Shown here one piece after another: positions 1 through 51,868 of a stretch of DNA of 64,000 nucleotides. The notes beneath the pieces are model-generated. The model saw only the letters and a program-made list of their open reading frames with translations. It had not been told where the DNA came from and ran no database searches. Source of the stretch: Occallatibacter gabretensis (GTDB taxonomy: Bacteria; Acidobacteriota; Terriglobia; Terriglobales; Acidobacteriaceae); NCBI RefSeq assembly GCF_001449115.1, contig NZ_LAIJ01000009.1, forward strand, positions 1,556,114 to 1,620,113, given 5' to 3'. The translations under genes were made by a program, and so were the position numbers. Every line of letters starts with the position of its first letter. Position 1 is the stretch's first letter.

Positions 1-418
1 AGGCCACCGGATTGTTGTACAGCATGCCTTGAAGCGGCGTGGCCTTCAGGATCGCAGCCACATGCGCCCGCATCTCGCGCCAGTCGCCCTTGTATACATA
101 GGGCGGCAGAATCATCAGCCCCTGCGCGCCAACCCCCGCAGAAGCCTCTGCCATTTTCACTGCCTCTGCCGTCGAAAGCGCAGAGATGGCCGCCACTACG
201 GGAATCGCAGGCGAAACCGCATCCACGACAGTCTTCACAATGGCGATCTTTTCATCAAAGGTCAGCGTTGCGGCTTCGCCAAGCGAGCCAAGACAGATGA
301 TGCCGGTGCAGCCATTCTCAATCAACCAGCGTGCGTGCCGCGCCACAAAGCCATGATCCACGCTGAGCTGCTCGTCAAATGCCGTCGTCATCGCCGGCAT
401 AACGCCCTTCCACTGCAT
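1..418 (-). CDS. DapA-family lyase/deaminase, probable 1-pyrroline-4-hydroxy-2-carboxylate deaminase (partial)
   Basis: This is the N-terminal part (about 139 residues) of a dihydrodipicolinate-synthase-family class I aldolase; it runs off the left edge. It starts MQWKGVMPAMTTAF and keeps the family's GxxGE-like loop (CLGSLGEAATL) and the YNNP motif just before the edge. The ATG lies 16 bp after the oxidase gene, so it is the third gene of a leftward operon epimerase-oxidase-lyase. In known trans-4-hydroxyproline pathways a DapA-family enzyme deaminates the cyclic imine made by the D-hydroxyproline oxidase, giving 2-oxoglutarate semialdehyde. The family assignment is firm. The specific reaction is inferred from the neighbours, because DapA homologues are functionally diverse. 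A semialdehyde dehydrogenase would be expected further left, outside the window. Confidence 0.85.
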   Translation of the reverse strand, partial: MQWKGVMPAMTTAFDEQLSVDHGFVARHARWLIENGCTGIICLGSLGEAATLTFDEKIAIVKTVVDAVSPAIPVVAAISALSTAEAVKMAEASAGVGAQGLMILPPYVYKGDWREMRAHVAAILKATPLQGMLYNNPVA

Positions 419-434
419 AAGAAACCCTCTTTGC

Positions 435-1547
435 TTAGTTGTCGAATCGTGCAGGCAGATACGGCTCAATTGGAATTTCCAACTTGTGCCCCGTGAGCGC
501 CGCTGCAATCAGCGCCGCCGTGCCGAGCGATGTCGTAATGCCCAGTCCCTCATGCCCGGTGGCGAGCCAAAGCGTCTCATCGTCCGGAACAGGGCCAATC
601 AGTGGCAGCTTGTCCGGCGTAGCCGCGCGAAAGCCCACTCGGGTCGTCGCCATTTTCTTTGTGGCTAGTGCAGGTATGTACTGCGCCGCGCGCTTCAGCA
701 GCGCCTCCACGATGCGCTTGTCTACGCCCGTATCCTCATTGTCATACTGACGTGAGGCGCCGATAAGGATCTGTCCGTTCGGTCTCGGCTGCACATTAAA
801 CACCACGGAATCGGACTCCGCGGCCTGCGTGCTCTTCAAATATCCAAGCTCGGCCACCTGGTGCCGCACAAGGTCCGGATATCTTTCCGTGAGGACCAGA
901 TGCCCTTTGCGCTTCCGGATCGGCAGGCCGGGATTAAGGTCTGTCGCCCATCCGCATGTGGCATTGACGAGTAGCGGCGCGGTCAGCCGCACGCCTTTAT
1001 CAAGCACAGCTTCGCCTCTGCGGAGTGCGTTAATCTTGCAGCCCAAAAGCAGTTCAGCACCATGCGCCAGCGCCTGCGTCACCAGGTGCATCGCCACTGC
1101 TGGTGGATTGACAATCGCATCCTGCGGCACAAACATCCCGCCCGCAAGCCCGGCGCGAAGATTGGGCTCGTGCTCGGCCAGATTGCTGGGACTCAGCACA
1201 GTTGCAGGCACTCCGCGCTCGTTGTAGTAGGCGCTCTTCCGCTCCGCTTCTGCCAGCTCTTCATCATCGGCCGCCACCCAAACGGTGCCCAGAGGCTCAT
1301 ATTCCGCCTCCGCCGCAAGCGTCGGCGCAAGCTCCTGCCATAGACGTTGCGAGTAGCGCGTCAGGGCAAACTGCGCCTCGGAGTCGTCGAGAACCACAAT
1401 GTGTCCCATACCCACGGAAGTGGTTTCGCTGCCGACTCCGCCGCGGTCCACAAGCGCCACGTGCATTCCCGCCCGTGCCAGACTTGCAGCGCACGCCGCT
1501 CCCACAATGCCAGCCCCCGCAACAATTGCGTCGAAATGATGGTTCAT
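435..1547 (-). CDS. FAD-dependent D-amino-acid oxidase/dehydrogenase, probable D-hydroxyproline oxidase
   Basis: This 370-residue protein of the DAO (DadA-like) flavoprotein family probably oxidises cis-4-hydroxy-D-proline to the cyclic imine. The N-terminus has a dinucleotide-binding Rossmann motif (VAGAGIVGAACAASLARAG, residues about 10-28) followed by an acidic strand end (VDRGG). The C-terminus has the FAD-contacting GHEGLGITTSLGTAA segment typical of DAO proteins. There is no signal peptide, so it is cytoplasmic. Its start overlaps the stop of the epimerase gene by 4 bp (ATGA), which argues for translational coupling. The sequence alone does not tell oxidase from dehydrogenase, nor hydroxyproline from other D-amino acids; substrate is inferred from the operon. 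Confidence 0.85.
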   Translation of the reverse strand: MNHHFDAIVAGAGIVGAACAASLARAGMHVALVDRGGVGSETTSVGMGHIVVLDDSEAQFALTRYSQRLWQELAPTLAAEAEYEPLGTVWVAADDEELAEAERKSAYYNERGVPATVLSPSNLAEHEPNLRAGLAGGMFVPQDAIVNPPAVAMHLVTQALAHGAELLLGCKINALRRGEAVLDKGVRLTAPLLVNATCGWATDLNPGLPIRKRKGHLVLTERYPDLVRHQVAELGYLKSTQAAESDSVVFNVQPRPNGQILIGASRQYDNEDTGVDKRIVEALLKRAAQYIPALATKKMATTRVGFRAATPDKLPLIGPVPDDETLWLATGHEGLGITTSLGTAALIAAALTGHKLEIPIEPYLPARFDN

Positions 1548-2512
1548 GCGCCAATCCCGTTCTGGAATGGATCTTCCGGGTCGAAAAGCAATGTAGCCTC
1601 TGCCGTTATATATGCGGAACCTGTAATGGAAGGATGCACCACATCGTTTTCCACACGCGCACGGCCTTCAAACACCGTGCCCAGGATCCCTTCCTGCCGC
1701 CACGCTTCACCTGGTGCAATCTTGCCATCGGCAATCAGGCACGCAAGTTTAGCGCTTGTTCCTGTTCCACACGGTGAGCGGTCGTACGCTTTTCCCGGGC
1801 AGAGTACGAAATTCCGGCTATGATTCTCCGTGTCCAGAGGTGGGGAAAATAATTCAATATGATCAATCTCTACATCATTCGCGCCTGTAATGCCTTGCGC
1901 CTTAAGCTGCGTGCGAATCTGCCACGTATACTCCGTTAGATGTTCTACATTCTCGAGCGCAAGCTCTTGCCCGTGATTTTGTGCGAGAAAAAACCAATTT
2001 CCTCCCCACGCCACATCGCCTGTCACTGCAATGCCGCCCGGCAGGCTCACGCGCGCGCCCATCTTATATCGATACGCAGGCACATTTTCCACCGTAACCG
2101 TATGTGCGTCTCTGAGATGTACCTGCACCACGCCCACTGGCGTCTGTAATCTATGCGTTCCCGCCGCAATGCGGCCAAGATATGCCAGCGTTACAGCCAC
2201 GCCAATCGTCCCGTGGCCACACATGCCAAGATAGCCTGCATTGTTAAAGAACACAACTGCCGCCGCACAATCCGGCTCATCCGGTTCCAGCAGATAGGCG
2301 CCAACCAGCACGTCGGACCCCCGCGGCTCGCACAAAATCGCCCTCCGCAGATCGTCATGCTCGCGCTTCAGTCGCTCCACACGCTCGGCCAGGGTGCCTG
2401 CGCTCCTCCTAAAAACAGGCTCCGGCACTCCCGCCAGCACGCATCGCGTTGGCTCGCCCGCCGTGTGCGAGTCAATCACAGTCATCTTGCGAATGGATTT
2501 CTCGGTCTTCAT
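1544..2512 (-). CDS. Proline racemase family, probable 4-hydroxyproline 2-epimerase
   Basis: This 322-residue enzyme of the proline racemase superfamily probably converts trans-4-hydroxy-L-proline to cis-4-hydroxy-D-proline. Both catalytic cysteines are visible: C98 in MCGHGTIG and C248 in SPCGTGTSA. Having both separates epimerases/racemases from the trans-3-hydroxyproline dehydratases, where the first Cys is replaced. It is the first gene of the leftward operon and is followed by the FAD oxidase with a 4-bp overlap. Its promoter must lie in the 123-bp gap shared with the divergent GH127 gene. Proline racemase itself cannot be excluded, but the oxidase and DapA-family partners favour hydroxyproline. 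Confidence 0.88.
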   Translation of the reverse strand: MKTEKSIRKMTVIDSHTAGEPTRCVLAGVPEPVFRRSAGTLAERVERLKREHDDLRRAILCEPRGSDVLVGAYLLEPDEPDCAAAVVFFNNAGYLGMCGHGTIGVAVTLAYLGRIAAGTHRLQTPVGVVQVHLRDAHTVTVENVPAYRYKMGARVSLPGGIAVTGDVAWGGNWFFLAQNHGQELALENVEHLTEYTWQIRTQLKAQGITGANDVEIDHIELFSPPLDTENHSRNFVLCPGKAYDRSPCGTGTSAKLACLIADGKIAPGEAWRQEGILGTVFEGRARVENDVVHPSITGSAYITAEATLLFDPEDPFQNGIGA

Positions 2513-2635
2513 AGCGGTTCGCTCAGGGATCGGTCAGTAAAGCACATATAGAATACAATCGGAACGCTCAAGCTCACTCAGCCATCGCTCCGCTAGTCTA
2601 TTCAGTGCCGGCTTTTCACATAGGAGCAACCTGCA

Positions 2636-4516
2636 ATGCGTCCCATCTCACGCCGCCATTTTATCGGGTCCTCGGCCGCGCTTGCGGCAGCCGCTGCCTT
2701 CACGCCTCGAAAGATTTTTGCGGCTTCGGACGCGGTCACGGAAACCATTCCCTGGAAGGCGCAGCCTTTTCCCATGTCGCAGGTGCGCCTGCTCTATGGC
2801 CCGTTTAAAGAGGCGCAGGAACGCAACCGCGTCTATCTTTTCATGCTGCCGAACGACCGCCTCTTGCATAACTTCCGTCTTACTGCCGGGCTTCCGTCCA
2901 ATGCGCAATCCCTCGGCGGCTGGGAGCTGCCGAACAGCGAACTGCGGGGCCATCTTGCCGGCGGCCACTATCTTTCCGCCTGTGCACTGATGTTCGCCTC
3001 CACGTGGGATGAAGCACTGCGAGCCAAAGCGATCAATCTGGTGGAAGAGCTTGCCAAATGCCAGCAGCCCAACGGCTATCTCGGCGCATATCCTGAAAAC
3101 TTTTACGATCGCCTCCGTCATTACAAGGAGGTCTGGGCGCCCTTCTATACCTACCACAAGATCCTCGCCGGCCACATTGACATGTATGTCCACTGCGGCA
3201 GCGACACTGCCCTCAAAACTGCCACGCGCATGGCCGACTGGGCCATCAACTGGATCGGACCGCTCTCCGACGAAGAACTTGCGCGCGTGCAGCTGGTCGA
3301 GCACGGCGGCATGAACGAAGCGCTCTTCAATCTCTACGCAATCACCGGCGAAAAGAAGTATCTCGACGGTGGCCTGCGTTTTGAACACAAGAAGTTCTTC
3401 GACCCGCTGGCCGCGCATCAGGACAATCTCGACGGCCTGCACTCCAACACCAACATTCCCAAGGTCATCGGCGCGGCGCGCGGTTATGAGCTCACCGGCA
3501 GTGAGCGCTATCACACCATTGCCGAGTATTTCTGGTCCACTGTCGTCGATCACCACACCTTCGCAGCCGGCGGCACCTCCAACGCCACCGAAGGCTGGAG
3601 TGCGCCCGACACCGCAGGCGCACATCTGGAAGCGGCTGGGCAGGAGTGCTGCTGCAGTTACAACATGCTCAAGCTCACGCGCCATCTCTTCGGCTGGAAT
3701 CCTGAAGCGCGCCGCATGGATTACTACGAGCGTCTCCTGTGGAACGTCCGCATGGGCACGCAAAACCCCGAAGGAATGCTCATGTATTACGTGCCCACAG
3801 CCGCCGGCGCATGGAAGACTTTCGGCAGCCAGTTTGATTCCAACTGGTGCTGCACCGGCTCCGGCATCGAAGAGTACTCCAAGCTCATCGACACGCTCTA
3901 CTTCCGCGATGCCGAAAGCATTTACGTGAATCACTTCGCTGCCTCTTACGTGGAGTGGCCGGAGAAGCATCTTCGCATCGAGCAACACACCTTCTTCCCC
4001 GAAGAAGAAAAAACGACTCTCGTACTTCACGCCACTCAGCCGACGGTATTCACCATGCGCTTGCGCAAGCCTGGCTGGGCAAACGATGCCCGCGTTACCG
4101 TCAACGGCCACGCCATCTCCTTCGCAACTGAAGCCGACGGTTACATCGCCCTCCAGCGCACGTGGCACGATGGCGATCGTGTTGAAATGACTTTGCCCAT
4201 GAAACTGCGTGAGCTGTCTGTCCCCGGCAGCCCCGATCTTGCCGCAGTTGCTTACGGGCCGCTGACGCTCGCCGCAGCCATGGGACGCGATGGCCTGACG
4301 CGCTTGCTCATTGAAAACCACGAGGGCCCTGATATGAGCAAGCTGCCCGCACTCGCCATGCCGCGTATTCAGCGCAAGCCCGGCGAAATGTGGGTCGAGA
4401 AGGTCCCCGGAGCCGCGCTCGCCTTTGAAACGCGCGGACAGGCCGAATCGATTCGGCTCAAGCCGATGCATAAGGTACTAGACGAGCGTTACTCCACTTA
4501 TTTCCAGATCGGCTGA
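2636..4516 (+). CDS. Tat-exported GH127 family glycosidase, probable beta-L-arabinofuranosidase
   Basis: This 626-residue protein belongs to glycoside hydrolase family 127 (DUF1680). The family's characterised members release beta-L-arabinofuranose, including from hydroxyproline-linked arabinosides of extensins. A Tat signal (SRRHFIGSSAALAAAAAF) directs it out of the cytoplasm. The zinc/catalytic residues of the family are recognisable: E337 and C339 in GQECCCSYN, and the C405-C406 pair in SNWCCTGSG; the first Cys of that pair corresponds to the known nucleophile. It is divergent from the hydroxyproline operon and is followed 24 bp later by a secreted M1 peptidase. Other GH127 members act on different sugars, so the exact specificity is inferred from context. 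Confidence 0.88.
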   Translation: MRPISRRHFIGSSAALAAAAAFTPRKIFAASDAVTETIPWKAQPFPMSQVRLLYGPFKEAQERNRVYLFMLPNDRLLHNFRLTAGLPSNAQSLGGWELPNSELRGHLAGGHYLSACALMFASTWDEALRAKAINLVEELAKCQQPNGYLGAYPENFYDRLRHYKEVWAPFYTYHKILAGHIDMYVHCGSDTALKTATRMADWAINWIGPLSDEELARVQLVEHGGMNEALFNLYAITGEKKYLDGGLRFEHKKFFDPLAAHQDNLDGLHSNTNIPKVIGAARGYELTGSERYHTIAEYFWSTVVDHHTFAAGGTSNATEGWSAPDTAGAHLEAAGQECCCSYNMLKLTRHLFGWNPEARRMDYYERLLWNVRMGTQNPEGMLMYYVPTAAGAWKTFGSQFDSNWCCTGSGIEEYSKLIDTLYFRDAESIYVNHFAASYVEWPEKHLRIEQHTFFPEEEKTTLVLHATQPTVFTMRLRKPGWANDARVTVNGHAISFATEADGYIALQRTWHDGDRVEMTLPMKLRELSVPGSPDLAAVAYGPLTLAAAMGRDGLTRLLIENHEGPDMSKLPALAMPRIQRKPGEMWVEKVPGAALAFETRGQAESIRLKPMHKVLDERYSTYFQIG

Positions 4517-4540
4517 CAAGCTAAAAGGACAAAGATACAA

Positions 4541-6298
4541 ATGTGTGCAATGCGGATGAAGCGCTTTTCAATGTTTGCGGCCTCGGTTGCGATCAGCTGC
4601 GCAGCGGTGGCGCAACAGAACGGCCAGAACGCGAATCAGGGCACAGGGCAGGGAACTGGACAAGCAGCAGGGCAAGCAACAGGACAAACGCAGACACAAC
4701 CCGCCAAGCCGCAGCCGCGCATCCGGCCCAATGACGCGGGCGCGCCCATTCCCATCCGCGCAGATATGCTCCGTGGCGCCTACGGGCCATACCGCGAGAA
4801 CAACAAGCTGCTCTACTACCACCTCGACATCCGCCTCGATCCGGAAAAGAAATACATCAGCGGCAAAAACACCATCCGCTTTCGTATGCTCAAAGCCGGC
4901 AATCGCATCCAGCTCGACCTGACGGACAAGCTGAACATCGACAAGATTCTCTTCGGCGACACGCCGCTTAAATATGAACGCGACGGCAGCGCCGTCTTCG
5001 TCAACTTCCCGTCTATGCTGCGCGTCGGGCAGGTTGTATCCATCGACCTCTACTACTCTGGCAATCCACCGGAGGTCGGGCGTTTTGGCGGCATCACCTT
5101 CAAAAAAGATTCTTCCGGCCACGACTGGATCAACACCGCCTGCGAGGGCGACGGCGCAAATGTCTGGTGGCCCAACAAGGATCAGTGGCGCGATGAAGGC
5201 GAAAGCATGGACCTGAGCGTCGCCATCCCCACTGGTCTAGTCGATGTTTCAAATGGCAAGTTCGTGAGCAAGACCGACCTGGGCGATGGCTATACACGCT
5301 GGGATTGGCATATCAGTTACGGCATCAATAACTACGATGTTTCGCTGAACATAGGCAACTATGTTCACTTTTCCGATAAGTTCGGCGACCTGCCGCTCGA
5401 TTTCTACGTGCTTCCCGAAGATCTTGACAAAGCCAAAGCGCAATTCTCGCAGGCTAAAGGCATGATCGAAGCCTACACCCATTACTTCGGCGAGTATCCC
5501 TTCGCAAAAGACGGATATAAGCTGATCCAGGCTCCCTACACCGGCATGGAGCACCAGAGTGCCGTCACTTACGGTAATTTATTCAAGAATGGCTATTACG
5601 GCCGCGACTGGACCGGCGTAGGCATCAGTCCCAGGTTCGACTTCATCATCATTCACGAAAGCGGCCATGAGTGGTTCGGCAATAGCATCACCGCCGTGGA
5701 TCCATCCGATATGTGGATTCACGAAGGCTGGGACACTTATCTCGAAAGCCTGTATGTCGAATACCGCTGGGGTAAGGCCGATGCTATCAAGTATCTAAGC
5801 GGCTACAGGCCTAAGATACATAATCTTCGCCCGATCATCGCTGAGCGCGGCGTCAACGCCGATCCCACGGAAGATCAGTACTTCAAAGGCGCGCTCATGC
5901 TAAACACGCTCCGCAGCGTGATCAATGATGATGCAAAATGGTTCGCGCTGATCAAAGGACTCTATCAGCACTTTAAGCATCAGCAAATCGAGACGGAAGA
6001 TATCGTCGCCTACTTCAATCAGCATTCCGGCATGAATCTCACGCCCATCTTTAACCAGTACCTTCGCCGCGCACACATTCCACGGCTTGAGCTGCTCTTT
6101 GGCGAGTCCCCAAATCTGGTCATGTACAAATGGGACGCCGACGAAGACGACTTCGCCATGCCGATACGTGTAGGCACGCCCGATCACTGGCAGATCATTC
6201 ATCCCACGACGAAATGGCAGTGGATGCAATCACCGCTCAGCAAGGATGACTTTCAGGTTGCGACTGATTTCTACTACGTGGACGTGAACAAACAATAG
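4541..6298 (+). CDS. Secreted M1-family metallopeptidase
   Basis: This 585-residue protein has a signal peptide (MKRFSMFAASVAISCAAVAQQ) and then a Gln/Gly/Thr-rich low-complexity stretch before the catalytic region. The zinc motif HESGHEWFG gives H372, E373 and H376, with E395 (WIHEGW) as third ligand at the expected 19-residue distance. The M1 substrate-anchoring exopeptidase motif appears as GMEHQSA rather than the classical GAMEN. It probably trims peptides in the periplasm or outside the cell. It lies 24 bp behind the GH127 gene, behind an aaaggaca-type ribosome site, and is likely co-transcribed. Three in-frame ATGs occur in the first 20 bases; the signal peptide fits any of them. The stop abuts the convergent next gene without a spacer. 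Confidence 0.9.
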   Translation: MCAMRMKRFSMFAASVAISCAAVAQQNGQNANQGTGQGTGQAAGQATGQTQTQPAKPQPRIRPNDAGAPIPIRADMLRGAYGPYRENNKLLYYHLDIRLDPEKKYISGKNTIRFRMLKAGNRIQLDLTDKLNIDKILFGDTPLKYERDGSAVFVNFPSMLRVGQVVSIDLYYSGNPPEVGRFGGITFKKDSSGHDWINTACEGDGANVWWPNKDQWRDEGESMDLSVAIPTGLVDVSNGKFVSKTDLGDGYTRWDWHISYGINNYDVSLNIGNYVHFSDKFGDLPLDFYVLPEDLDKAKAQFSQAKGMIEAYTHYFGEYPFAKDGYKLIQAPYTGMEHQSAVTYGNLFKNGYYGRDWTGVGISPRFDFIIIHESGHEWFGNSITAVDPSDMWIHEGWDTYLESLYVEYRWGKADAIKYLSGYRPKIHNLRPIIAERGVNADPTEDQYFKGALMLNTLRSVINDDAKWFALIKGLYQHFKHQQIETEDIVAYFNQHSGMNLTPIFNQYLRRAHIPRLELLFGESPNLVMYKWDADEDDFAMPIRVGTPDHWQIIHPTTKWQWMQSPLSKDDFQVATDFYYVDVNKQ

Positions 6299-12671: not shown

Positions 12672-14120
12672 TCACGGCAAATACAAATCCACATACTCAT
12701 TCACCGGCATCGCATCCAGCCGTTTCGTATCAAGCGAAGCCTCATGAATCCGCTCCTGCTGTGCAGCAGGGAAGCGCCGCGCCAGGTTCGTCCTGAACTT
12801 CTCCACCAGCAGCGGCAACCCAGCCTCGCGCCGCCGCCTGTGCCCAATGGGATACTCAACTGTTTGTTCCAGCAGGTCTCCATTTGCGAGAACGACCCGA
12901 AGCGCATTCGCAATCGACCGCTTTTCCGGATCGTGATAATCGCGCGTAAACTGCGGCTCCTCCACGCACGTAATCTTCTCGCGCAGCGCATCAATCCGCG
13001 CATTAGAGGCCACGCCATCCTCGTAATCCGCCGCAGTAAGCCGCCCAAAGATCAGCGGAATCGCCACCATGTACTGAATGCAATGGTCGCGATCCGCCGG
13101 ATTCACCAGCGGTCCCTTCTTGTCGATAATCCGCAGGCAAGCCTCATGCGTGCGAATCGTGATGCTCTTGATCGCATCCGCCGTCAGCCCACGCTCATCA
13201 AGCTGCTTCCGCAGCGTCATCGCCGCCTCTACCGCCGTCTGCGAGTGAAACTCCGCCGGATAGCTGATCTTGAACAGCACATTCTCCATCACATACGTGC
13301 CATAAGGCCGCTGAAACTTGAACGGCTGCCCTTTGAAGCTCACATCGTAAAAGCCCCACGTCTTCGCCGTCAGCGCCGTGGGATAACCCATTTCTCCAGA
13401 CTGGGCCATCAGCGCCAGCCGCACCGCGCGGCTCGTCGCATCGCCCGCCGCCCAGCTCTTCCGGCTTCCCGTATTCGGCGCATGGCGATACGTCCGCAAA
13501 CTCTGCCCATCCACCCACGCCAGAGAAATCGCGTTAATCGTCTGCTCCCTCGTCAGCCCCAGCAGCCTGCTCACCACGGCAGTCGAAGCCACCTTCACCA
13601 GCACCACATGGTCCAGGCCAACTTTGTTGAATGAGTTCTCCAGCGCAATGCATCCCTGAATCTCATGCGCCTGGATCATCGCACCCAGCACATCGCGCAT
13701 CGTCAGCGGCTGCTTCCCTTCAGCAATGTTCGTGCGCGAAATCCAATCCGCCACCGCCAGAATCCCACCCAGGTTGTCCGAAGGATGTCCCCACTCCGCC
13801 GCCAGCCAGGTGTCGTTAAAGTCCAGCCACCGAATCATCGCGCCAATATTGAAAGCCGCTTGCACCGGATCCAATTGATACGGCGTCCCCGGCACCCGAG
13901 CCCCATTCGGCACAACAGTGCCCGGCACAACCGGCCCCAGCAGCTTCGTACAGGCCGGATATTCGAGAGCCTCAAGCCCACATCCCAGCGTGTCAATCAA
14001 ACAAGCCCGCGCAGTAGACCACGCCAGCTCGCTTTCAATCGAGTAATTCAGCGCGTAATCAGCAATATCAACAAGCACCTGATCCGGCGCAGGACGGTCA
14101 TTCGAAATATGAGAGGACAA
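12672..14120 (-). CDS. prpD: MmgE/PrpD-family 2-methylcitrate dehydratase
   Basis: This 482-residue cytoplasmic enzyme of the MmgE/PrpD family dehydrates 2-methylcitrate to 2-methyl-cis-aconitate in propionate breakdown. The length and the conserved blocks [20 protein letters not shown] and [13 protein letters not shown] fit PrpD. It is the last gene of the leftward prpB-orf-prpC-prpD group, 134 bp after prpC, and that gap contains a dispersed hairpin repeat. No AcnD/PrpF pair is present, so the cofactor-free PrpD route is the one encoded here. Confidence 0.92.
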
Positions 14121-14180
14121 GTAAGACTCCTGATCTTAGGCAATATTTGGTCGATCGTCTTGGATAGGTTTTGTAACAGG

Positions 14181-14240
14181 GCACGACTTTAGTTGTGCCG
14201 AGAATGCGGCAAAAATAGCGGGCTTTAGCCCCTGAGGGAA
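14181..14240 (+). repeat. Dispersed two-stem repeat, type B, copy 1
   Basis: GCACGACTTTAGTTGTGC forms a first hairpin, and GGGCTTTAGCCCCTGAGGG provides a second small stem. The same arrangement occurs inverted at 56227-56288, with substitutions in the stems. It lies between prpC and prpD and could form an RNA structure inside the operon transcript. Confidence 0.75.
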
Positions 14241-14254
14241 TCTCTTGCCTGAGG

Positions 14255-15409
14255 TTAGATCCGCTGCTCGATTGCCACAAACTCCAGATTTTCCGGACCC
14301 GTATAATTCGCACTCGGCCGAATAATCTTTCCATCCGCACGCTGCTCCATCACATGCGCGCCCCATCCCGCCGTCCGCGCAATCACAAACAGCGGTGTAA
14401 ACAGATCAATCGGCACGCCCATTTCGTGATATGCGACCGCAGAAAACCAGTCGAGATTCGGAAACATGCGCTTCGTCTCATGCATCACCGCTTCAATCCG
14501 TTCCGCAACCGCATACAGCGTCATACCGCCGGCCTCATCTGAAAGTTCGCGCGCAATCCCCTTGATAATCTCGCTCCGCGGATCGCTGATCGTATACACC
14601 GGATGCCCGAAGCCGATAATCACCTCGCGCTCCGCCACCCGCCGCCGAATATCCGTCTCAGCCTCATCCGCAGATGCATAGCGCTCCTGAATCTCCAGCG
14701 CCACTTCATTCGCGCCGCCATGCTTCGGCCCCTTCAGCGCGCCAATCGCCCCCGTAATGCATGAATAGATATCCGATCCCGTCCCCGCAATCACCCGCGC
14801 CGTAAACGTCGAAGCGTTGAACTCATGCTCCGCATACAAAATCAGCGAGGCCTGCATCGCCGCCACCCACTCCGCGCTCGCAGGCTTGCCATGCAGCAGA
14901 TGCAGCAGGTGCGCCGCAATCGAATCATCATCCGTCTCAATCGCAATCCGTTTGCCATGCCGCGCAAACTGCAGCCAGTAGCACAACATCGAAACCAGCT
15001 TCGAGAGCAGCCCATCGGCAATCGCCGTTGCGGCTGCCGCATTATGGTCCAGCCCCTCCGGCTCAACGCACCCCAGCACGGAAACACCCGTCCGCAACAC
15101 ATCCATCGGATGCGCCGTAGCAGGCAGCAGCTCCAGCGCCTTCAAAACCGCATCTGGAAGTCCGCGCGCCGCCTTCAACTCACTTTTGTAAGCAGCCAAC
15201 TCCGCCGCCGTAGGCAGCTTGCCATGCAGCAGTAGATATGCCACCTCTTCGTACTCACAGTGCGCAGCCAGATCATGAATGTCGTACCCGCGATAATGCA
15301 GGTCGTTACCCGTATGGCCCACGGTACACAGTGCAGTGTTCCCGGCAGGCGTCCCAGACAGCGCCACAGATTTCTTCGGCTTAAATGTCGCAATTGCAGC
15401 TTCGCTCAT
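14255..15409 (-). CDS. prpC: 2-methylcitrate synthase / citrate synthase
   Basis: This citrate-synthase-fold enzyme of 384 residues condenses propionyl-CoA with oxaloacetate. The active-site blocks are present: [14 protein letters not shown] near the N-terminus, [10 protein letters not shown]-like [18 protein letters not shown], and [18 protein letters not shown], whose [10 protein letters not shown] form is typical of methylcitrate synthases. The C-terminal Arg is in [14 protein letters not shown] chose the ATG one codon after a GTG because the GGGAG ribosome site is better spaced. It lies between a small membrane-protein gene and prpD. Confidence 0.92.
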
Positions 15410-15477
15410 CACACAACTCCCGAGAGCTTCACCGTATCGAACGCTGCGTACGGGTGTCTAGAGTCAGTCAATCGAAA

Positions 15478-15801
15478 CTATTTCCGAGGCCGTCGGCTTC
15501 TTCCGATAATTTTTCTGAGTAGAAGCAGCACAACCCAGCAAAGAATGAAATGGAGGAATGCATTGATGAGTGCACCGGGAACTAATGAGCCAGTAACCGC
15601 CGCTACATAAAGCCCTGGAATGAGAAGAATTGTTAAGCCTGTCTGAGCGGTTGCAACCACAGCATTCTCGGAAAGCGCCGAAATCGGACCCGCAGCAAAC
15701 GTCAAGCACCCAAACAATATTCCCCAGATCCCAGCAATGGAATATATCCGTCCGTAACTCAAGAAACGATGGTCTGTCTCGCTGGAATCAGGCTGGCTCA
15801 T
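15478..15801 (-). CDS. Small membrane protein inside the prp operon
   Basis: A 107-residue protein with three hydrophobic segments (about residues 20-40, 49-66 and 76-97) and a basic tail ([12 protein letters not shown]). Its ATG overlaps the prpB stop by 4 bp, so it is translationally coupled to prpB and precedes prpC by 69 bp. I do not recognise the family. Placement suggests a link to propionate metabolism, for example transport or membrane tethering, but nothing in the sequence shows it. Confidence 0.75.
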
Positions 15802-16706
15802 CCTACTTCGGGTCTCTTCCCCTTCGCAAACAACTCATCCAGCTTCTGCTCATACGCGTGATACCCAAGATATTTATAAAGATCCGCCCTCGACTGCATC
15901 GTCTCCACCACGTTCTTCTGCGTGCCCTCCGCGCGAATCGTCTCATACACCTTCAGCGCCGCGGCATTCATCGCCCGATACGCCCCGCAGCAATAGAGAA
16001 CAATATCCACACCAGCCGCGCCCAACTCCTCACGCGTCCACAGCGGCGTCTGCCCAAACTCCGTAATATTCGCCAGCACCGGCACGCCCACAGCCTTGCG
16101 AAACTCCGTATACTGCCCCAGCTCCGTAACCGCCTCGGCAAAAATCATATCCGCACCCGCAGCCACATACGCCTGCGCCCGCGCAATCGCCGCAGCCAAG
16201 CCCTCACTCGCCAGCGCATCCGTCCGCGCCATAATCACAAACTGCGAATCCGTCTTCGCATCGACAGCAGACTTGACGCGATCCACCATCTCTTCCGCAG
16301 GCACAATCTCCTTGCCCGGCCGGTGTCCGCAGCGCTTCTGTCCCACCTGGTCTTCCATATGCACAGCAGCCGCGCCCGCTTTGATCATCTGCCGGATCGT
16401 CCGCGCAATGTTGAACGCCCCGCCCCAGCCCGTATCGATATCCACCAGCAGCGGCAGCGCGCTCGCATCCGTAATCCGCCGCACGTCGGTCAGCACATCC
16501 TCCATCGTGCTGATGCCCAGGTCCGGAATCCCCAGCGAATTCGCCGCCACGCCTCCACCCGAGAGATACAGCGCGCGAAAGCCCGCAGCCTCCGCCAGCT
16601 TCGCCGTGTAAGCATTGATGGCTCCAGCCACCTGCAGCGGTTTTTCTTCTTTCACAGCAGCGCGAAATCGCGCGCCGGGAGTGAGTGTAGAATTCGAGTC
16701 GGACAT
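15798..16706 (-). CDS. prpB: 2-methylisocitrate lyase
   Basis: This 302-residue isocitrate lyase-superfamily enzyme splits 2-methylisocitrate into pyruvate and succinate. The signature [10 protein letters not shown] holds the catalytic cysteine (C126), and VDIDTGWGG provides Mg-binding aspartates. I chose [16 protein letters not shown], behind an AAGGCGAG ribosome site; upstream in-frame codons would add 22 implausible residues. It is the first gene of the leftward prp operon. Confidence 0.93.
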
Positions 16707-50964: not shown

Positions 50965-51868
50965 ATGAAAAGCATCATCGTCATCACAGGAGCTTCGAGC
51001 GGCTTTGGCGCTCTCGCGGCACGCGCTCTCGCTATCGCAGGTCACACCGTTTACGCCAGCATGCGCGAGACCACTGGCCGCAACGCTGCGCAGATGGAAG
51101 CTGCTCAAGAGTTCGCGGTCGAGAACAAGGTAGATCTCCGCACGATCGAGCTGGACGTCGCCTCTCAGGAATCAGCCGACCAAGCCATCAAAACCATCGT
51201 CGAGAAAGGCGGTCGTCTCGATGTCGTCATCCACAACGCGGGACACATGGTCTTCGGCGCGGCGGAAGCCTTCACTCCCGAACAGCTCCTGCAGGTCTAT
51301 GACATCAACGTGCTCAGTACGCAGCGCGTCAATCGTGCCGCTCTGCCACAACTGCGCAAACAGATAAAGTGGTTTAGTGCTATGGGTCGGAAGCACTAGT
51401 ACGCGCGGAGGCACGCCGCCTTATCTTTCACCCTACTTTGCGGCGAAGGCAGCTATGGATGCGCTCGCTGTCAGCTATACTGCGGAGCTGAATCGCTGGG
51501 GTATCGAGACGTCCATCATCGTTCCCGGTGCCTTCACCTCCGGCACAAACCACTTCGCACACGCTGGCTCACCAGCAGACAAGGCTCGCCAGGCCGAGTA
51601 CGATAACGGCCCTTACGCCCATCTTGGTAACGACATCATGAAGGGGTTCGCTGCTACCGCGCCTGCCGATGCCGATGTGGCCGATGTCGCCAAAGCTATC
51701 GTCAGTGTGGTGGATTTGCCCTTCGGTAAGCGTCCGTTCCGCGTGCACATCGATCCCGCGCAGGACGGTGCGGAGATCGTCAATGGAGTGGCAGATCGTG
51801 TTCGCACCGAGATGTATCGCAACATCGGTCTGTCGGATCTGCTGTCGCCTGTTGCGTTTTCGCTCTGA
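50965..51868 (+). pseudogene. SDR-family oxidoreductase broken by a frameshift
   Basis: The first frame (stop at 51399) has VITGASSGFGALAARALAIAG and VVIHNAGHMVFG. The second (from about 51380 to 51868) continues with VGSTSTRGGTPPYLSPYFAA, where the catalytic YxxxK-type motif reads YFAAK, then the C-terminal half. One inserted base near 51364, in CGCAAACAGATAAAGTGG, explains the break: removing it reads RKQKSGLVLWVGS. The intact protein would be about 300 residues. A CAAAGGAGGAT ribosome site precedes the start. A sequencing error remains possible. Confidence 0.85.

Follow-up and report, generated by a model that had tools for sequence, protein, structure and literature searches.

Two bacterial systems, XeHypBA1/XeHypBA2/XeHypAA of Xanthomonas euvesicatoria and HypBA1/HypBA2/HypAA (Bll4HypBA1) of Bifidobacterium longum, degrade the β-L-arabino-oligosaccharides linked to hydroxyproline (Hyp) in extensin. 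In the Xanthomonas system, the final step, on β-linked L-arabinofuranose (Araf-β-Hyp), falls to XeHypBA1, an exported member of GH146 (PMC6085000, PMC10850190). The Bifidobacterium system takes the arabinose, and the paper on the Xanthomonas system mentions neither hydroxyproline catabolism nor an epimerase (PMC6085000). Hydroxyproline is degraded by the hypE-hypO-hypD-hypH operons and HypR regulons of Sinorhizobium, Pseudomonas, Streptomyces and Shewanella, whose upstream enzyme, if any, is a collagenase (Streptomyces, PMC6608401; Shewanella, PMC5343134); we found no Hyp-arabinose glycosidase among those described. For Latescibacteria, the degradation of hydroxyproline-rich glycoproteins via GH127 has been proposed, and we found in that account no linkage of this glycosidase to genes for hydroxyproline catabolism (PMC4454575). 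Here, we describe a locus in a 64-kb stretch of the Occallatibacter gabretensis genome (G000:C2:1556114-1620113, hereafter the window; genome size 5.35 Mb), in which genes predicted to serve the same epimerase, dehydrogenase and deaminase steps as in the HypR regulons adjoin a gene for a predicted exported GH146-type enzyme. Whereas the Bifidobacterium system takes the arabinose, the prediction here is that the amino acid is burned as well. We interpret the locus as a compact hydroxyproline-glycoprotein utilization locus, a reading to which we assign a probability of about 0.72. Each half is known, and their joining is, provisionally, new: we found no account of a joint glycosidase-hydroxyproline catabolism locus in the open literature, subscription journals being mostly outside the search. 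Its nearest parallels are the hydroxyproline regulons that contain collagenases and the arabinose-only systems of Xanthomonas and Bifidobacterium.

Organization of the locus

Two arms start at one 123-bp gap, with EPI-DAO-DapA running leftward and GH-M1 rightward. The open reading frames, together with Pfam and NCBIfam assignments, confirmed the gene order, directions and shared gap given in an initial annotation of this DNA; the DapA-family gene extends left of the window. Positions below are those of the window, and genomes and loci elsewhere carry our own handles (G and L; G000 is the window's genome).

1-418, minus strand: DapA family (Pfam DHDPS); the gene runs past the left window edge, and the whole gene encodes 306 amino acids (aa) (L063:2612-3532)
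435-1547, minus strand: DAO, FAD-dependent D-amino-acid oxidoreductase, predicted D-hydroxyproline dehydrogenase/oxidase of the β-subunit type (Pfam DAO; GAGIVG motif)
1544-2512, minus strand: EPI, proline-racemase family, predicted 4-hydroxyproline 2-epimerase (NCBIfam NF052296, 4j9w match, residues)
2513-2635, no strand: shared intergenic region, divergent promoter region, 123 bp
2549-2558, no strand: possible, weak operator-like element TAGAATACAA (8/10 match to TTGTATACAA)
2636-4516, plus strand: GH, predicted β-L-arabinofuranosidase exported by twin-arginine translocation (Tat), GH127/GH146 group, nearer GH146 (Pfam GH127 catalytic and middle domains, TAT signal)
4541-6298, plus strand: M1-family metallopeptidase, predicted to be secreted, of uncertain locus membership (Pfam M1, HESGH)

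EPI and DAO overlap by 4 bp, and the spacings are 16 bp between DAO and DapA and 24 bp between GH and M1.

Epimerase and glycosidase

EPI scored 405 bits against NCBIfam NF052296 (4-hydroxyproline epimerase) versus 207 bits against the proline racemase model, and its top solved match was 4j9w (404 bits). The two catalytic cysteines reported earlier are present as Cys98 in MCGH and Cys248 in DRSPCGTG, a pair common to proline racemase (ProR) and HypE (PMC4364671). Three sites discriminate between these enzymes: site 1 is Phe in proline racemases and Ser/Val in HypE, the His at site 4 is specific to HypE, and site 5 is Cys/Tyr in HypE instead of Phe (PMC4364671). EPI carries Val70, His218 and Cys238, the HypE pattern at all three sites, and in the alignment its letters at these positions and at the Cys-Cys pair are the same as those of 4j9w. 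Because the three residues match both the HypE pattern and 4j9w, hydroxyproline rather than proline is the predicted substrate. A proline-specific epimerase, which the initial annotation had named, together with a GH127 enzyme inactive on β-L-arabinofuranosides, as a finding that would undo its proposal, is not what these residues indicate.

Against solved proteins, GH scored 337 bits with 5opj, 182–184 bits with 8k7x/8k7y and 41 bits with HypBA1 of GH127. By these bit scores, GH is closer to GH146 than to GH127, despite the Pfam domain name GH127. The two families share clan GH-P. The closest solved relative, 5opj, is BT0349, a GH146 enzyme of a Bacteroides rhamnogalacturonan-I locus; BT0349 handles arabinan oligosaccharides in that pectin locus and has an extra C-terminal jelly roll, whereas GH ends before it. 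The entries 8k7x/8k7y fit Bll3HypBA1 of GH146 (PMC10850190). The earlier description of a Tat-exported GH127 enzyme agrees with the predicted export, the Tat signal being above the Pfam cut-off, and needed correction in the family. The Zn-binding/catalytic set is complete (Glu319, Glu337, Cys339, Cys405 and Cys406, giving Glu-x-Cys, Cys-Cys and the acid/base Glu). This correction strengthens the idea of hydroxyproline-arabinose removal, since GH146 holds the extracellular XeHypBA1 (PMC6085000) and Bll4HypBA1, both of which act on Araf-β-Hyp, the final sugar on hydroxyproline (PMC10850190, PMC6085000).

Linkage of the two halves

We surveyed 41 genomes of near relatives. Wherever EPI occurred, EPI-DAO-DapA was the rule, and the usual operon in relatives was EPI-DAO(-HcnA-HcnB)-DapA(-KGSADH), which matches the bacterial hydroxyproline pathway as defined in PMC6608401. 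By homology, HcnA and HcnB are the γ and α subunits of D-hydroxyproline dehydrogenase; KGSADH is the α-ketoglutarate semialdehyde (KGSA) dehydrogenase. The same divergon was found in G013, of the same genus, with GH and EPI ~0.3 kb apart and HcnA and HcnB after GH, and again in L211, where GH is 67% identical. DapA and GH are also adjacent in G038 and G032, both from another family; in G038, EPI-DAO-HcnA-HcnB-DapA-GH all have the same orientation, and GH comes straight after DapA. In G007, HcnB and M1 occupy the place of GH-M1, facing EPI. An ancestral divergon of EPI-DAO-DapA facing GH-HcnA-HcnB-M1 would account for these arrangements if HcnAB was later lost in G000 and GH in G007.

Linkage was counted in two sets of genomes. 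The first was a class-wide sample of 299 genomes not chosen for linkage (cut-offs E ≤ 1e-120 for GH and E ≤ 1e-70 for EPI), in which GH occurred in 65, EPI in 68 and both in 21. The second comprised named genomes picked only by GH similarity, 38 of which carry both genes. In the class-wide sample, co-occurrence alone was only slightly raised (21 vs 14.8, P 0.03), while GH and EPI lay within 20 kb of each other in 5/20 genomes, with the window's genome left out, where 0.17 was expected at random positions (P ~7e-7); these P-values are too small, because the two sets share a few genomes and the genomes are related. Contig breaks, which hide linkage, count in the opposite direction. In the second set, the GH146-EPI distance was ≤32 kb in 16/38 genomes (0.6 expected), ≤20 kb in 14/38 and ≤15 kb in 11/38. 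On the GH tree, the linked state required 14 changes (shuffled mean 16.5), at least 10 of them forced by well-supported (starred) branches. Since the linked label is scattered over the tree and does not form one clade, a single recent ancestor does not explain the linkage. The conserved association of the two halves, on which the initial annotation had staked its proposal, is therefore far above chance and occurs in several architectures and two phyla.

Extended loci and companion families

The region that holds both GH146 and the hydroxyproline genes in G316, G071, G125, G129, G330 and others also encodes FadR-type GntR regulators, OMP_b-brl_4/CarboxypepD_reg outer-membrane proteins and amino-acid permeases. 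The hydrolases of these loci include GH27 α-galactosidases, S9 DPP4-like peptidases, GH43 and GH51, and DUF885 and DUF5695 proteins are also present. Rhodanobacter sp. PCA2 carries, within 20 kb, EPI-DAO-HcnA-HcnB-DapA-KGSADH-M24 peptidase-DUF885-permease-(790-aa family)-GH27-GH146-TonB receptor, and the locus of Dyella sp. AtDHG13 is similar; the larger loci come from Acidobacteriaceae, Rhodanobacter and Dyella. Culturable bacteria with a linked locus include Acidicapsa dinghuensis and Acidipila sp. EB88 as well as Rhodanobacter sp. PCA2. An outer-membrane receptor and a regulator beside the hydrolases, the polysaccharide-utilization type of arrangement, are present in G316, G129 and Rhodanobacter and absent from the window locus, which is best read as a reduced, compact form of the wider one.

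Extensin bears α-galactose on serine and β- and α-linked arabinofuranose on hydroxyproline (PMC5371791, PMC6085000). The predicted companions fit this substrate: GH27 and a GH-D-like fold for Ser-α-Gal, GH43/GH51 for the α-Araf cap, GH146, S9/M24 proline peptidases, TonB receptors and permeases. No arabinan- or galactan-backbone enzyme was recognized in the annotated linked loci. Two families lacking a Pfam assignment recur near GH146:

L130:7372-9738: 790-aa family; also L163, L166, L176, L184, L197, L200, L201 and L214
L125:11697-13460: 587-aa (~590-aa) family; also L144, L153, L156, L168, L182 and L189

The 790-aa family, found in Acidobacteria and Rhodanobacter, has a Tat-like signal and often adjoins GH146. 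Its fold model (predicted local distance difference test, pLDDT, 67) matched (α/α)6 glycosidases generally, HypBA1 and HypBA2 among many, which suggests with modest confidence an (α/α)6-type glycosidase. The fold model of the 587-aa family, encoded beside or near GH146, was nearest to clan GH-D α-galactosidase/α-N-acetylgalactosaminidase enzymes (pLDDT 60), an indicative sign of a GH-D-like glycosidase. Another recurrent neighbor of GH146 and the hydroxyproline genes is DUF5695 (L127:8288-10951, L128:14343-17012 and many further cases); sequence or profile searches of the PDB with DUF5695 and the 790-aa family gave no match. We tentatively suggest, at a little under even odds, that a dedicated extensin locus, common to Acidobacteriota and to some Xanthomonadales (Rhodanobacter, Dyella), would dismantle Hyp-arabinosides and Ser-galactose and burn hydroxyproline, with the DUF5695, 790-aa and 590-aa families as new glycosidases.

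A separate arrangement was seen in Xanthomonas sp. AmX2 (L209:2545-15385), where the neighbors of GH146 (48% identity) are GH43, an aldehyde dehydrogenase and the ATPase of an ATP-binding cassette (ABC) transporter, consistent with an L-arabinose product.

Proposed function and alternatives

Outside the cytoplasm, the Tat-exported GH146-type enzyme would take the last β-linked L-arabinofuranose off the hydroxyproline of extensin-type wall glycoproteins, after which peptidases, possibly M1 and others encoded elsewhere in the genome, would release hydroxyproline. Inside, EPI would convert trans-4-hydroxy-L-proline to cis-4-hydroxy-D-proline, the FAD enzyme would oxidize this to Δ1-pyrroline-4-hydroxy-2-carboxylate, and the DapA-type enzyme would deaminate the latter to KGSA, which an unlinked dehydrogenase would turn into 2-oxoglutarate. 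The initial annotation had proposed that the unit strips arabinose, trims the peptides and burns hydroxyproline. The coupling of glycosidase to catabolism is supported by the linkage, the epimerase residues and the GH146 relatives, with extensin as the presumed substrate; the trimming by M1 is not, or at most weakly.

Several observations weigh against this interpretation. EPI, at 405 bits, falls below the NF052296 equivalog cut-off of 450. Other members of GH146 act on arabinan and arabinogalactan protein (AGP) (PMC10850190), so membership of the family makes GH a candidate enzyme for Araf-β-Hyp. More than half of the genomes holding both genes have them unlinked, two of them with both on one contig 0.2–0.5 Mb apart, and many hold just one. 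The window locus is without a transporter, TonB receptor, α-galactosidase, regulator and HcnAB, and M1 adjoins the hydroxyproline operon only in G000 and one relative, G007. Searches of the window's genome for orthologues of HcnB and of the FadR-type GntR regulator gave no match, empty answers that are weak as proof of absence.

Some of these points would suit two independent units, one a hydroxyproline operon of general use and the other a GH146 enzyme that trims β-L-arabinofuranose from pectic arabinan or AGP, brought together by accident or by shared induction on plant litter. Such glycans are the substrates of BT0349 (arabinan/RG-I, rhamnogalacturonan-I) and Bll3HypBA1 (AGP, arabinan) (PMC10850190), many genomes that hold GH146 have no epimerase or have it far away, and the transporter, GH43 and aldehyde-dehydrogenase genes around GH146 in Xanthomonas sp. 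AmX2 are not accompanied by an epimerase. However, the linkage exceeds the random expectation by tens of times, with several gene orders and two phyla represented, the tree requires the changes of linked state on well-supported branches noted above, and the linked loci hold proline peptidases, α-galactosidase and permeases, those annotated showing no recognized arabinan- or galactan-backbone enzyme. We therefore regard independence of the two units as unlikely.

The later catabolic steps bear on a second alternative. DAO, whose best solved matches are glycine/sarcosine oxidases, lies directly after EPI, an order conserved in relatives. It is of the β type, and because a search of this genome gave no homologue of the α subunit HcnB, which relatives commonly have, we assume a stand-alone form. 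The DapA-family gene lies downstream of EPI-DAO in most relatives, and its product had no close match among solved DapA-family enzymes; adjoining an epimerase and a dehydrogenase, this DapA-superfamily protein is predicted to be the hydroxyproline-pathway deaminase. L-2-keto-3-deoxyarabonate (L-KDA) dehydratase likewise belongs to the DapA superfamily, and both enzymes yield KGSA. The DapA-type protein could accordingly be an L-KDA dehydratase, with arabinose burned oxidatively to KGSA and hydroxyproline joining at the same intermediate; the shared superfamily and product, and the distance from any solved family member, leave room for this. Yet the gene follows EPI and DAO even where no GH is nearby (for example, in G002, G003 and G022), and the genome encodes an L-arabinose isomerase, which opens the isomerase route to arabinose. 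We consider such an oxidative arabinose pathway very improbable.

A KGSA dehydrogenase, a transporter and arabinose genes had been expected to the left of the window. The ~17 kb read there held no KGSA dehydrogenase, hydroxyproline transporter or arabinose genes; hyuA/hyuB-like, major facilitator superfamily (MFS), TolC-like and FUSC-like genes were present. A KGSA dehydrogenase homologue is encoded unlinked on contig C12 (L085:907-2484) and shares 58% identity with the KGSADH that G316 has in its operon, and the arabinose isomerase also lies elsewhere in the genome. In many relatives, KGSADH does sit at the hydroxyproline locus, as does a permease.

The M1 gene appears intact by motif and agrees with the secreted M1 peptidase described earlier, having an M1 domain, the HESGH zinc motif at residues 372-376 and a signal-peptide-like N-terminus. 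Its orthologues occur across the genus at 73–81% identity, mostly away from EPI. We rejected M1 as a core member of the locus in general, and the previously proposed role as a dedicated peptide trimmer finds little or no support; its position may be real in the two genomes or incidental. We know of no M1 enzymes that are good at proline or hydroxyproline bonds. Linked loci in other genomes carry S9 and M24 peptidases. Least probable of all is that the right-hand genes have housekeeping roles and the hydroxyproline half serves another source (collagen, peptide antibiotics or hydroxyproline free in litter). The collagen-directed proteases linked to known hydroxyproline regulons (PMC6608401, PMC5343134) and the unlinked M1 orthologues would allow this, but the recurrent neighbor is a β-L-arabinofuranosidase-type enzyme, and β-linked arabinofuranose on hydroxyproline is a plant/green-algal feature (PMC6085000, PMC5371791).

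Regulation

FadR-type regulators control hydroxyproline genes in other bacteria (PMC6608401, PMC5343134), and as in the HypR regulons, a FadR-type GntR regulator adjoins the genes in relatives of the window locus. Sequences like TTGTATACAA occurred upstream of EPI in 32/51 regions in relatives at ≥8/10 (2.7 expected), a count to be read with the motif having been picked by eye after viewing the sequences and the upstream regions overlapping. The element may be a FadR-type GntR operator, which we offer as a lead only. A promoter scan of the 123-bp gap, from which the two arms might be co-regulated, gave no sigma-70-type match.

Neighboring genes

Directly beyond DapA lies a convergent hydantoinase/5-oxoprolinase-like hyuA-hyuB pair (L063:2-2562, L062:15727-19262), recognized from sequence with no family search run, and an MFS-like transporter gene lies upstream of this pair, left of the window. 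To the right, M1 is followed by genes for a metallophosphoesterase and a LytTR regulator. We see no reason to count the hyuA/hyuB-like pair, the metallophosphoesterase or the LytTR regulator as members of the locus. Farther into the window, consecutive MmgE/PrpD-like, citrate-synthase-like and PrpB-like genes (12672-16706), read from sequence only, are probably a 2-methylcitrate cycle set. At 50965-51868, two short adjoining open reading frames resemble a single short-chain dehydrogenase cut in two, possibly a broken gene.

Implications

Plant walls contain nitrogen in their hydroxyproline-rich glycoproteins, and the organisms that mineralize these in soil, and their means, are poorly known. 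A recurrent locus joining hydroxyproline deglycosylation and catabolism would be a marker for this process in the abundant, hard-to-grow Acidobacteria. It would give GH146 enzymes a physiological purpose, parallel to the collagenase-hydroxyproline link of Shewanella and Streptomyces, and it points to unstudied companion enzyme families. Because a gene for a predicted exported arabinose-clipping enzyme repeatedly adjoins hydroxyproline-burning genes, our results suggest that soil Acidobacteria and some distant relatives feed in a dedicated manner on plant wall glycoproteins such as extensin.

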